Positions 58,743-62,526 of a DNA stretch of 64,000 nucleotides are shown here, piece by piece; position 1 is the first letter of the stretch; each line of letters begins with the position of its first letter. This DNA comes from Chloroflexi bacterium GWB2_54_36 (GTDB lineage: Bacteria; Chloroflexota; Anaerolineae; Anaerolineales; Anaerolineaceae): assembly GCA_001796355.1 (NCBI GenBank), contig MGMG01000017.1, positions 1 to 64,000 on the forward strand, written 5' to 3'. The notes beneath the pieces are model-generated. The model made no database searches, was not told the origin of the DNA, and saw only the letters and a list, made by a program, of their open reading frames with translations. The translations under genes were made by a program, and so were the position numbers.

Positions 58743-59162
58743 ATGTACCATACCATTATCATCGTCGGCAATCTGGGTAAGGATCCGGAAATGCGCTACA
58801 CGCCCAGCGGTCAGGCGGTAACCAGCTTCTCCGTTGCCACCAGCCGGCAGTACACCGGTCAAAACGGCCAAAAAGTCAAAGAAACGATCTGGTTCCGAGT
58901 GTCCGCCTGGGGTAAACAAGCCGAGACCTGCAACCAGTACCTGCGCAAGGGCAGTAAAGTGCTGGTGGAAGGCCGCCTTACCCCGGATCCATCCACCGGG
59001 GGGCCGCGCGTCTTCACCCGCCAGGATGGCACATCCGGCTCTTCCTTCGAAATCACTGCCAGCAACGTTCGCTTCATGTCCACCCGCGCTGAGGGTGAAG
59101 GTGAAGGCGGCGGTGGCAGCGAATTCCCCGAAGGGGATGCTGGCGACGAGATCCCGTTCTAA
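58743..59162 (+). CDS. ssb: Single-stranded DNA-binding protein
   Basis: This 139-residue protein has an SSB OB-fold (about 1-108; VGNLGKDPEMRYTPSGQAV, WFRVSAWGKQAE and YLRKGSKVLVEGRL), a Gly/Glu-rich linker and the acidic tip DEIPF that binds partner proteins. It is shorter than E. coli SSB (178 residues). GGAGTCGCC precedes the ATG. It starts a run of plus-strand genes that continues to the window edge, with repair and nucleic-acid proteins downstream. Confidence 0.95.
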   Translation: MYHTIIIVGNLGKDPEMRYTPSGQAVTSFSVATSRQYTGQNGQKVKETIWFRVSAWGKQAETCNQYLRKGSKVLVEGRLTPDPSTGGPRVFTRQDGTSGSSFEITASNVRFMSTRAEGEGEGGGGSEFPEGDAGDEIPF

Positions 59163-59174
59163 GGATCGACTGCC

Positions 59175-59543
59175 ATGAACGGCCAATCCAAACCCCCTAC
59201 TCCTGGTTTTAACATGGAGATGCCGGATGACCTGCTGGCTGTGTACAGCAACGTTGCCCGTATCAGTCACACGCCGTTTGATTTTGTGATGGACTTCTCG
59301 CAGGCGCTGCCGGGTAAACCGCACACTGAAATTTTGTCCCGCGTCATCATGTCGCCGGCCGGGGTCAAACTGTTCCAGCGGGCGTTGACCGAAAATATTG
59401 CTCGCTATGAGTCTATTTTTGGCGAGATCACGCTTCCCAAAGGCGACACGGGGTTGGCAACCGACCTTTTCCGGCGCGTTCAACCGCCGGATGCCCCTCC
59501 CGCCGAACCTCCTTCAGACGAGCCTACCCCCCCGAAAGAATAA
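59175..59543 (+). CDS. DUF3467-like small protein
   Basis: This 122-residue protein has the DUF3467 pattern: VYSNVARISHTPFDFVMDF, then RVIMSPAGVKLFQRAL, then NIARYESIFGEI, with a Pro-rich tail (about 103-122). The family has no known function. It lies 12 bp after ssb and 3 bp before the translin-like gene, so it is probably co-expressed with both. A link to DNA or RNA metabolism is inferred from position only. Confidence 0.82.
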   Translation: MNGQSKPPTPGFNMEMPDDLLAVYSNVARISHTPFDFVMDFSQALPGKPHTEILSRVIMSPAGVKLFQRALTENIARYESIFGEITLPKGDTGLATDLFRRVQPPDAPPAEPPSDEPTPPKE

Positions 59544-59546
59544 TCT

Positions 59547-60179
59547 TTGGAAGATTTTTCGCAATTCACTGAAATCGTTCATCAAGCCTTCGAAACCTTA
59601 AACCAGGCGCGCGACAACGCGCTGGTACAGGCGCGTCAATTGACCCGCCTTTCAGCCAATACCATTCGCGCCATACACCGCGGTGAAAACGATGCTGCCC
59701 ACAAAAATCTGGTTGAAGCCGGCAAAATCGCGGCCGAATTGAAGAAATCTCTGGCCGGATTCCCGCAACTTTTCTTTGCCGGTTACACCCAGGACGCGCT
59801 CAAAGAATATGTCGAGGCGACTCTCACCTGCGCCATCATCGAAAACCAGCGCCTGCCCAAACCGGAGGTGTTGGATGTTGAAATCAACACCTATTTAAAC
59901 GGTTTAGCCGAGGTCACTGGAGAACTGCGCCGCCGCACTCTGGATATTTTGCGGCAGGGCTATTCCCCGGAAGCCGAACGCCTGTTGAGCTGGATGGACG
60001 AGATTTATAACCTGCTGGTCACAGTCGATTACCCGGATGCACTGACCAACGGCTTGCGCCGCCAGACGGACCTGGTACGCGGCATCGTCGAACGCACCCG
60101 CGGCGACCTGACGATCAGCCTGCGCGAGGAACGCCTCCAGCAGGCGCTGGAGCAGGCAATCAAACGCCTGCCAGAGTAA
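59547..60179 (+). CDS. Translin-family protein
   Basis: This 210-residue all-helical protein matches the translin/TRAX fold. It has an N-terminal helix (about 5-60) with an Arg-rich ARQLTRLSANTIRAIHRGE, the hallmark KEYVEATLTCAII (translin GlqEYvEA segment, about 92-104) and PEVLDVEINTYLNGLAEVTGELRR, with several acidic residues typical of RNase-active members. Translins bind single-stranded DNA/RNA, and some cleave RNA. The TTG start at 59547 is the only candidate near the fold's beginning. Its stop shares one base with the next start (TAATG). Confidence 0.8.
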   Translation: MEDFSQFTEIVHQAFETLNQARDNALVQARQLTRLSANTIRAIHRGENDAAHKNLVEAGKIAAELKKSLAGFPQLFFAGYTQDALKEYVEATLTCAIIENQRLPKPEVLDVEINTYLNGLAEVTGELRRRTLDILRQGYSPEAERLLSWMDEIYNLLVTVDYPDALTNGLRRQTDLVRGIVERTRGDLTISLREERLQQALEQAIKRLPE

Positions 60180-60418
60180 TGCGGGTCATTCGCGCGTCCG
60201 AGATCGGTGCTTACCTGTACTGCCACCGCGCCTGGTGGTATCACCTGCAAGGGATCACCTCCGAAAACCAACAAGAACTTGCATCCGGCAGCGGTTTTCA
60301 TCGCCGCCACGGCCGGCGCGTGTTAAGCGCAACTCTGCTGCGGGCTGCCGGTTGGATTCTGCTGCTGGCAGCGCTGGTGGTGGCGGCTGTGACTGCCACG
60401 CTGCAGTTCCTCCCCTGA
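60179..60418 (+). CDS. N-terminal half of a split membrane-bound Cas4-like nuclease
   Basis: This 79-residue protein begins SEIGAYLYCHRAWWYHLQG, the N-terminal iron-sulfur Cys (Cys15) helix typical of Cas4/PD-(D/E)XK nucleases. LASGSGFHRRHG (His41/His44 in the active-site helix) follows, then a transmembrane helix (about 52-76). It ends with a TGA. The next coding start lies one codon (GCC) after the stop in the same frame. The missing nuclease core and three Cys are supplied by the following gene. It overlaps the translin stop by one base. Confidence 0.8.
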   Translation: MRVIRASEIGAYLYCHRAWWYHLQGITSENQQELASGSGFHRRHGRRVLSATLLRAAGWILLLAALVVAAVTATLQFLP

Positions 60419-60421
60419 GCC

Positions 60422-60934
60422 ATGCCCTGGATTCTCGCACTCCTCCTGGCTGCAGCCGCCCTGGCGCTGCTCTGGCTGAGCCGGCGTCAGCAGAGGTCAG
60501 CCGGACTTCCCGCCGGGCGCGTGCTATATAGCGATCCCAAGGTCATTGGCGCCCCGGAGCGTCCGTTATATGACCCGGACACGCATCTCACCGGCAAACC
60601 GGATTACCTGGTCGAAGAGCACGGCGTGGTTATTCCGGTGGAGGTCAAAAGCGGCTGGGCGCCGCCCGAGCCGCACCTGGGGCACATCTACCAGTTGTTG
60701 GCATACTGCCTGCTGGTGGAAAAAACCCAAGGCAAACGCCCGCCGTACGGCATTCTGCGCTACCGCAACCGCTCCTTCAGCATCGATTTCACCCCCGATG
60801 CCGAACGTGAACTCAGGTCACTACTGGAGGAGATGCACGCCGCCGCCCGTCACAAAGAACTGAACCGTTCGCATGAAGACCGCAGCCGCTGCGCTCATTG
60901 CGGCTATCGCTCGATCTGCGACCAAAAATTGTGA
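60422..60934 (+). CDS. C-terminal half of a split membrane-bound Cas4-like nuclease
   Basis: This 170-residue protein begins with a transmembrane helix (about 3-20) and continues with the PD-(D/E)XK core: GKPDYLVEEHG (Asp61), IPVEVKSG (Glu74, Lys76) and HIYQLLAYCLL (Gln91, Tyr95). It ends with RCAHCGYRSIC (Cys157, 160 and 166), the C-terminal Cys trio of Cas4 Fe-S nucleases. It lacks the N-terminal Cys and His, which are on the previous ORF. Together the two halves contain the full residue set, so they probably form one enzyme. The Cas4-like label is by motif; no CRISPR locus is linked. Confidence 0.82.
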   Translation: MPWILALLLAAAALALLWLSRRQQRSAGLPAGRVLYSDPKVIGAPERPLYDPDTHLTGKPDYLVEEHGVVIPVEVKSGWAPPEPHLGHIYQLLAYCLLVEKTQGKRPPYGILRYRNRSFSIDFTPDAERELRSLLEEMHAAARHKELNRSHEDRSRCAHCGYRSICDQKL

Positions 60935-61138: not shown

Positions 61139-62008
61139 ATGGACTGCACCCAGACAATCCCCCGTCGAATCGCGATTGGCGTGCACCCGCAAATGCCCGC
61201 GGCGGCCGAAGAAGCCGAAGGCATTGCGCATTTTCTCCATGAGCGCGGCGTGGAGGCGTATTGGGGAAGGATGCATGATCCATCTTTCCGTCAGAAATTG
61301 GAAAGCGATACCGATCTGTGCATCGCCCTTGGCGGCGACGGCACCATTCTGCGCGCCGGGCATCTATGCGCTCCGCTGCATATTCCCATCTTAGGCATCA
61401 ATCTGGGCCGCTTTGGCTTCCTGACGGAGGTCAAGCGGACTGAATGGCGGGACATGCTGCCGCTGCTGATGGAAGGGCGCTACTGGCTGGAAGGACGCAT
61501 GATGCTGCAGGCCACCCATTTGCGTGAGGGAAATGCGCTGGGCAGTTGGAGCGTGCTCAACGAGGTGGTTATCTGCCGCGGACAGTTTGTCCGGCCAGTG
61601 ACGCTGCGCGCCCAGGTGGACGGTTACCCGCTGGCGACCTACATAGCTGACGGATTGATTGTTTCCACCCCCACCGGTTCCACCGCTTACGCATTAGCTG
61701 TTGGCGGGCCAATCATGCCACCGGACTTGCGCAACATTCTGATTGTAGCCGTCGCGCCGCACCTTTCAGTGGACCGCGCCATCATCCTGTCCGAAGGGTC
61801 GGTGGTCAATGTGACCGTACACACTACCCACCAGGCGGTCTTTAGCGTAGATGGACAGCCGCCGGTCAGCATGGCGGACGGAGACGAGGTGCGCGTCGAA
61901 GCCAATCATAATACCGCCTGTTTTGTGCGTTTTGGCGACCGCGGCTATTTCTACCGTAACATCACGAATTATATGGAACAAAATCCTACTGCCGGTGAAA
62001 CTGAATGA
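61139..62008 (+). CDS. nadK: NAD kinase
   Basis: This 289-residue enzyme has the GGDGTIL catalytic/ATP loop, the NAD-binding ADGLIVSTPTGSTAYALAVGGP segment (key residues D, TPTGSTAY) and LNEVVICRG. It phosphorylates NAD+ to NADP+ in the cytoplasm. The ATG at 61139 is very close to a TATAAT box, so the message may be leaderless. Its stop overlaps the next gene (ATGA). Confidence 0.94.
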   Translation: MDCTQTIPRRIAIGVHPQMPAAAEEAEGIAHFLHERGVEAYWGRMHDPSFRQKLESDTDLCIALGGDGTILRAGHLCAPLHIPILGINLGRFGFLTEVKRTEWRDMLPLLMEGRYWLEGRMMLQATHLREGNALGSWSVLNEVVICRGQFVRPVTLRAQVDGYPLATYIADGLIVSTPTGSTAYALAVGGPIMPPDLRNILIVAVAPHLSVDRAIILSEGSVVNVTVHTTHQAVFSVDGQPPVSMADGDEVRVEANHNTACFVRFGDRGYFYRNITNYMEQNPTAGETE

Positions 62009-62526
62009 TCGAACCAACCACTACAGCCCAATATTGCTATAACCATCCCAACCGTGAGACCCTGCTGCGCTGCAATCGCTGCGAGCGTCCGATATGTACG
62101 GAATGCGCCGTGCTAACCCCCACCGGGTACCGCTGCAAAGAATGTGTGCGCGGGCTGCAGAAGAATTACGATACCGCACGCTGGATCGATTACCCGGCGG
62201 CGATCCTCATCGCCGGGGTATTGAGCTATCTCGGCGGCGGACTAGCTTCCATTATGGGCTTTTTTACAATTTTCATTGCCCCGGTAGCGGGCGTGATCAT
62301 CGCCGAAGCGGTGCGCTGGGCAGTCAAAAGACGCCGTTCGCGCTGGCTGTACCGCGCGGCTACCATCGCTGCCGCTGCCGGCGGAGTTGGGCTTCCGTTG
62401 GCCAGCCTGATCACGATGCTCGTAGGCGGTGGCTTTGGCATCTGGCAGCTGGTGTGGGGCGCTGCGTACGCTATTTTGGTCACATCGACGGTCTTTTACC
62501 GTCTGACAGGCATACAAATTCGCTAA
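62005..62526 (+). CDS. Zinc-finger membrane protein (B-box-like N-terminus)
   Basis: This 173-residue protein begins with a Cys/His-rich zinc module (CYNHPNRETLLRCNRCERPI, then CTEC and YRCKECV; about 10-50) like the one at the N-terminus of some bacterial rhomboid proteins. About four transmembrane helices (about 65-170) follow. No rhomboid catalytic GxSG or His is visible, so it is not an obvious protease. The zinc module suggests protein binding. The gene overlaps nadK by 4 bp and lies 10 bp before recN. Confidence 0.75.
   Translation: MIEPTTTAQYCYNHPNRETLLRCNRCERPICTECAVLTPTGYRCKECVRGLQKNYDTARWIDYPAAILIAGVLSYLGGGLASIMGFFTIFIAPVAGVIIAEAVRWAVKRRRSRWLYRAATIAAAAGGVGLPLASLITMLVGGGFGIWQLVWGAAYAILVTSTVFYRLTGIQIR

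Follow-up and report, generated by a model that had tools for sequence, protein, structure and literature searches.

A two-part member of the Cas4 family with a predicted transmembrane hairpin in Chloroflexota

The divided locus and its relation to Cas4

The window analysed here, a stretch of 64,000 nucleotides from contig MGMG01000017.1 of Chloroflexi bacterium GWB2_54_36, contains two consecutive short open reading frames, A and B, on the forward strand. The first-pass annotation, which was made from the letters alone, had described a frame (60179-60934) interrupted by a single TGA at 60416-60418 and followed by GCC and an ATG at 60422, and this matched the sequence letter for letter. The residues it had named were also present, namely Cys15, a histidine region that corresponds to His41/His44, and a hydrophobic segment in A, and a hydrophobic N-terminus, Asp61, Glu74-x-Lys76, Gln91, Tyr95, and Cys157/160/166 in B. 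In addition, the ATG of A overlaps the stop codon of the preceding gene (TAATG at 60177-60181). The features of the locus are as follows.

60179..60418, + strand: ORF A (putative subunit A), 79 aa; N-terminal part of Cas4, carrying Cys15 and His41/His44, then a single transmembrane helix (predicted) at the C-terminus
60221..60223, + strand: codon of Cys15 of A, equivalent to the N-terminal Fe-S ligand position of Cas4; invariant in homologues
60356..60412, + strand: transmembrane segment of A, about residues 60-78; mean Kyte-Doolittle value of 2.46 over 19 residues
60416..60421, + strand: split point, with the TGA stop of A (60416-60418) and GCC, after which B starts
60422..60934, + strand: ORF B (putative subunit B), 170 aa; N-terminal transmembrane helix (predicted), PD-(D/E)XK domain, and three C-terminal cysteines
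60422..60499, + strand: transmembrane helix of B, about residues 1-26, then a basic stretch; predicted helix, hydrophobic in homologues
60602..60706, + strand: active-site residues of B (Asp61, Glu74, Lys76, Gln91, Tyr95); invariant in homologues
60890..60919, + strand: Cys157, Cys160, and Cys166 of B, equivalent to the C-terminal trio of Fe-S ligands in Cas4; invariant

Both reading frames were matched to the curated Cas4 family model TIGR00372 (cut-off 65 bits), for which the joined A+B sequence scored 81.1 bits, B alone 66.3, and A alone 18.5. Residues 5-49 of A were placed on model positions 2-46 and residues 49-166 of B on positions 61-178, while about 78 residues of the window pair, comprising the two transmembrane segments, lie between positions 46 and 61. 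B also matched PF12705 (9.8e-11) and PF01930 (4e-10). The consecutive placement of A and B along the Cas4 models of Pfam and NCBIfam indicates a resemblance beyond chance. A profile search likewise aligned the A part and the B part with the Cas4 chains 8d3l and 4r5q, with Cys15 falling on their cysteine. Cys15 and His41 were invariant in all 70 A sequences from named relatives, and Asp61, Glu74, Lys76, Gln91, Tyr95, Cys157, Cys160, and Cys166 in all 79 B sequences (the window and 78 named loci). The pair carries the PD-(D/E)XK residues expected of a Cas4 protein (His, Asp, Glu-x-Lys, and Gln), and it has the four Fe-S cysteines, one N-terminal and three C-terminal, only when both chains are pooled. 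The requirements of a sufficient family model score and a Cas4 fold, the latter predicted, were also met. What A and B lack is the usual, though not formally defining, trait of a single polypeptide carrying the whole site. A and B together are a two-part member of the Cas4 family and, in this divided form, represent a new variant.

A hydrophobic segment was found in all 69 A and all 78 B homologues. The mean net charge was +2.8 (A) and +2.7 (B) on the domain side of this segment, and 0.35 and -0.03, respectively, on the loop side, so that both chains satisfy the description of an integral membrane protein with one helix per chain and a basic flank toward the domain. The basic flank on the domain side of both suggests that the soluble parts are cytoplasmic and that the split lies in an external loop. 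No transmembrane segment was detected in two CRISPR-type Cas4 controls, from Chloroflexota and Thermus.

The fold of the window chain was modeled with the TGA read as Gly, using 91 sequence rows that mostly held A alone or B alone. The joined chain gave a pLDDT of 93.5 and a pTM of 0.89, with long helices at residues 31-75 and 84-107, which support the transmembrane segments of A and B, respectively. The best PDB match of the model was the Cas4 structure 8d3l (E 1.1e-6, TM 0.66 by target), and further matches were Dna2, ACE1 (9iac), 4r5q, AdnAB, MGME1, and 4ic1. The model gives, with high confidence, a Cas4 fold into which a hairpin of helices is inserted, and the split falls in the predicted external loop. 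A read-through single chain forces A and B together, so the model supports the fold and is not proof of association.

Conservation of the division

B was detected in 43 of the 61 genomes searched from the window's own genome, its genus, family, and order, and in 28 of the 30 loci fetched in this order-level search A with its own stop codon preceded B; the exceptions were a truncated A (L018) and a locus with no A nearby (L021). The joined A-B profile matched 221 of 297 genomes of the class and 119 of 301 genomes of the phylum, and an A homologue was present in 211 of the 297 class genomes. An independent scan of named genomes returned 288 relatives, and the best 80 of these, all labelled Chloroflexi or its sublineages, were analysed. 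The isolates Anaerolinea thermolimosa IMO-1 and Levilinea saccharolytica KIBI-1 are among them and carry the split. Thus, the comparison of homologues that had been proposed as a check showed the split to be kept throughout Chloroflexota, and also in two other phyla (see below).

Among the best 80 of the 288 relatives, A stood directly before B in 52, a gap of 0.2-1.3 kb, usually with a gene inside, separated them in 19, and no A was found in the fetched stretch in 9; no A-B fusion was seen in any of the 80. In some other loci, unrelated genes have come to lie exactly between A and B, a HEAT-like gene in L092 (2544-3176) and a YkuD L,D-transpeptidase gene in L090 (2921-3694) and L091 (about 1430-2165). 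In the 52 adjacent pairs, B was in frame with A in 11 and in the other two frames in 28 and 13, and the stop codons of A were TGA (36), TAA (10), and TAG (6). The position of the split is therefore kept among relatives, and the frame, stop codon, and spacing vary. Many B starts overlap the A stop (ATGA), suggesting coupled translation.

In other genomes, A and B are not linked. For the 129 class genomes with both positions listed, the genes were adjacent in 73, 0.6-1.4 kb apart in 23, further apart on one contig in 7 (only 5.5 kb in one of these, G135), and on different contigs in 26. Some of the latter cases may be assembly breaks, although the same separation was seen in closed genomes: A and B lie 434, 387, and 410 kb apart in the closed one-contig genomes G255, G262, and G302, respectively. 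In G585, 887 kb of a single contig separate them, and they are also far apart in G069. Each of these five genomes has exactly one A and one B, with the exception of a weak second match in G585, which is an ordinary Cas4. When B was counted at a joined-profile E value <1e-20, with A-only matches excluded and the comparison made by hand, 207 of the 297 class genomes had both genes, 82 had neither, 4 had only B, and 4 had only A. Because the genomes share ancestry, these figures do not represent independent events. The B tree requires at least 4 changes between the linked and unlinked states and at least 3 changes for fusion. The dN/dS ratios among four close relatives were 0.06-0.17 for A and 0.07-0.15 for B, which corresponds to purifying selection. 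A and B are retained or lost together, independent of gene linkage.

The pair also occurs on plasmids in two other phyla. On the Bacillus subtilis plasmid NZ_OX419581.1 (L245/L247), an 81-aa "hypothetical" protein is encoded directly before a 162-aa Dna2/Cas4 domain protein, and two more B. subtilis plasmids match. The planctomycete plasmids PALBO2 of Paludisphaera borealis (NZ_CP019084.1, L246) and pSINAC03 of Singulisphaera acidiphila (NC_019895.1, L248) carry an A-B pair with a 4-base overlap. The B. subtilis and planctomycete pairs retain the cysteine of A and the active-site and cysteine positions of B, and a clear transmembrane segment was found in each chain of the B. subtilis and Paludisphaera pairs. 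A DinG-type helicase gene precedes the pair on the B. subtilis plasmid and hfq comes after it, while the planctomycete pairs are near DNA methylase genes. These plasmid records label B as Cas4-like and A as hypothetical, indicating that half of the enzyme goes unrecognised by standard annotation. On the Planctomyces plasmid NZ_CP011275.1 (L249:837-1336), a B homologue following a transposase gene looks shortened or broken into overlapping ORFs. No match to the pair was found in phages or viral contigs, and a phage origin was rejected on this ground.

Natural single-chain forms were found in f79, a family with genomes of up to 13.7 Mb in which most members are split. Three loci (L094, L095, and L096) are A-B fusions in which the hairpin is retained, and the B tree places them within split relatives. 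The catalytic Asp is gone in all three, GKPD being replaced by GKPA, ARPA, and GKPT, and several split f79 members also lack Asp or Glu with the cysteines retained. As a side observation, f79 loci are sometimes fused and often without Asp/Glu (L094-L096, and also L114, L238, L239, L110, and L235-L237), and keep all Fe-S cysteines of B, as if a nuclease had turned scaffold or sensor.

These data bear on the two alternatives that the first-pass annotation had left beside a true split. A solo Cas4 gene for one chain that has been broken by a recent nonsense mutation, has become a pseudogene, or contains a sequencing error would fit the window genome and its closest relatives, where the two ORFs are in frame with one stop codon between them, but this is refuted with virtual certainty by a split that recurs in isolates, in all close relatives that have the gene, and in three phyla, by the varied stop codons and the mostly different frame of B, by purifying selection on both parts, and by separate loci in closed genomes. 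The other alternative, TGA readthrough, taken together with programmed frameshifting as a second route to one protein, has the in-frame TGA of the window and the fused chains of three relatives in its favor. However, 41 of the 52 adjacent pairs are out of frame, all three stop codons are used, 19 of the 80 loci have a gap between A and B, usually with a gene in it, and the genes are unlinked in other genomes, so that this explanation is hardly tenable and was likewise excluded. The division of A and B is old and inherited, and it is not a broken gene.

Genomic neighbourhood and possible role

The genes around A and B in the window are as follows.

58743-59162, + strand: ssb, named from sequence
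59175-59543, + strand: DUF3467 gene (DUF3467 domain match)
59547..60179, + strand: Trax (translin family)-like gene (PF01997 5.4e-7; AfTRAX 3zc1 3.6e-22), with one base of its stop codon shared with the start of A
61139-62008, + strand: nadK-like gene, named from sequence
62005-62526, + strand: gene for a zinc-finger membrane protein, named from sequence
62537 to the window end (64000), + strand: recN, named from sequence

The Trax-like gene is similar to archaeal AfTRAX, and such genes are unusual in bacteria. In 55 fully flanked named loci, neighbours were nadK-like (43), recN (39), Trax-like (25), ssb (24), and DUF3467 (21) genes. It was also observed that the order ssb, DUF3467, Trax-like, A, B, nadK-like, zinc-finger, recN recurs in many Anaerolineales (L145-L224). 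Other lineages have different neighbours, such as an M50 peptidase gene (L104) or an HD-domain gene (L096). This variation between lineages means that the role is only weakly fixed by the operon. The neighbourhood of ssb, Trax-like, nadK, and recN genes in Anaerolineales suggests DNA end processing.

Cas1 was never near the pair in the genomes checked, although it was present in most of them. In those genomes the pair does not adjoin cas1/cas2 as a CRISPR-associated Cas4 would, and on this basis a CRISPR link was rejected. A link to DNA uptake was sought through ComEC and was uninformative, since 42 of 43 genomes had ComEC, whether or not they carried the pair.

The possibility that the two chains form chiefly a membrane Fe-S sensor or a DNA-binding scaffold, and not a nuclease, arises from the f79 members that keep their cysteines without the catalytic Asp or Glu; this loss implies that nuclease function may not be common to all versions of the complex. 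None of the 79 B sequences departs from Asp, Glu, Lys, Gln, or Tyr at the active-site positions, and we regard this possibility as quite improbable. A nuclease acting at the membrane primarily in anti-phage or anti-plasmid defence is harder to set aside. A cyanobacterial solo Cas4 limits a plasmid (PMC10653904), and DNA methylase genes lie near the planctomycete plasmid copies. On the other hand, the Anaerolineales pair is found among ssb, nadK, and recN and not among defence genes, and the absence of Cas1 near the pair in the genomes checked also speaks against defence, which seems rather unlikely and remains the main rival. Our inference is a housekeeping nuclease that acts at the membrane on DNA ends or single strands. 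Its role may, as a tentative proposal, be the processing of such ends and strands in DNA maintenance or in the control of incoming DNA.

Two chains and one predicted Fe-S site

The A-B pair shares with solo-Cas4 and the wider Cas4 family (PF01930, TIGR00372) the PD-(D/E)XK motifs, the arrangement of one plus three cysteines, and the predicted fold. Unlike solo-Cas4, it consists of two polypeptides, has a transmembrane hairpin inserted where the family model runs from position 46 to 61, and lacks a cas1 link. The fold and Fe-S ligand layout also resemble those of CRISPR Cas4 (8d3l, 4r5q, 4ic1), which is a single soluble chain. ACE1, an Argonaute-associated Cas4 (9iac, 9iab), is likewise a Cas4-type fold outside CRISPR, but it was solved as one chain, and in the loci read we noticed no Argonaute gene close to either A or B. 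The nuclease domains of Dna2, AddB/AdnAB, and MGME1 have the RecB/Cas4-type fold in common with the A-B model; however, they occur in large single chains or without the cluster, and they are not membrane hairpins. In Dna2 and AddB, too, the Fe-S site brackets the nuclease domain.

In the searched portions of a previous survey, solo-Cas4 is described as monophyletic in many Chloroflexi and all Cas4 proteins as having four conserved cysteines, while the methods state that short fragments or disrupted sequences were discarded (Hudaiberdiev et al., 2017; PMC5704561). No split or membrane form of Cas4 is reported in those portions. Nor was a published split or membrane Cas4 found elsewhere in the literature, although only openly licensed papers were covered and this is weak evidence.

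Taken together, A and B are most probably the two subunits of a single Cas4-type nuclease anchored in the inner membrane, one Fe-S ligand being on A and three on B; the association of the chains, the cluster, and the activity are inferred. In the proposed arrangement, A would give the N-terminal helices, the first Fe-S cysteine, and the conserved histidines, and B would give the catalytic PD-(D/E)XK domain together with the three remaining cysteines. The single transmembrane helix of each chain would contribute to a hairpin, the chains being divided at its external loop and their soluble parts lying in the cytoplasm. After synthesis, the chains may assemble so that one Fe-S site and one DNA-binding channel are closed at the inner membrane. 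Conservation, topology, and the predicted fold are the basis for the shared cluster, the helix-mediated assembly, and the membrane tether, all three of which have been inferred, not measured.

We also lean, with more reserve, toward a stronger reading: the pair would be an obligate two-subunit membrane nuclease, present in three phyla or more, and its single Fe-S cluster would be built from ligands on two separately encoded, sometimes unlinked chains that meet through a transmembrane hairpin. Cas4 has been described as single chains with a four-cysteine cluster. The two-chain membrane form gives a testable architecture for the solo-Cas4 of Chloroflexota, whose function is open. It raises the questions of how one metal cluster is completed from two polypeptides and why a DNA nuclease is held at the membrane. 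If the obligate two-subunit reading is true, cluster assembly could control DNA cutting at the membrane.
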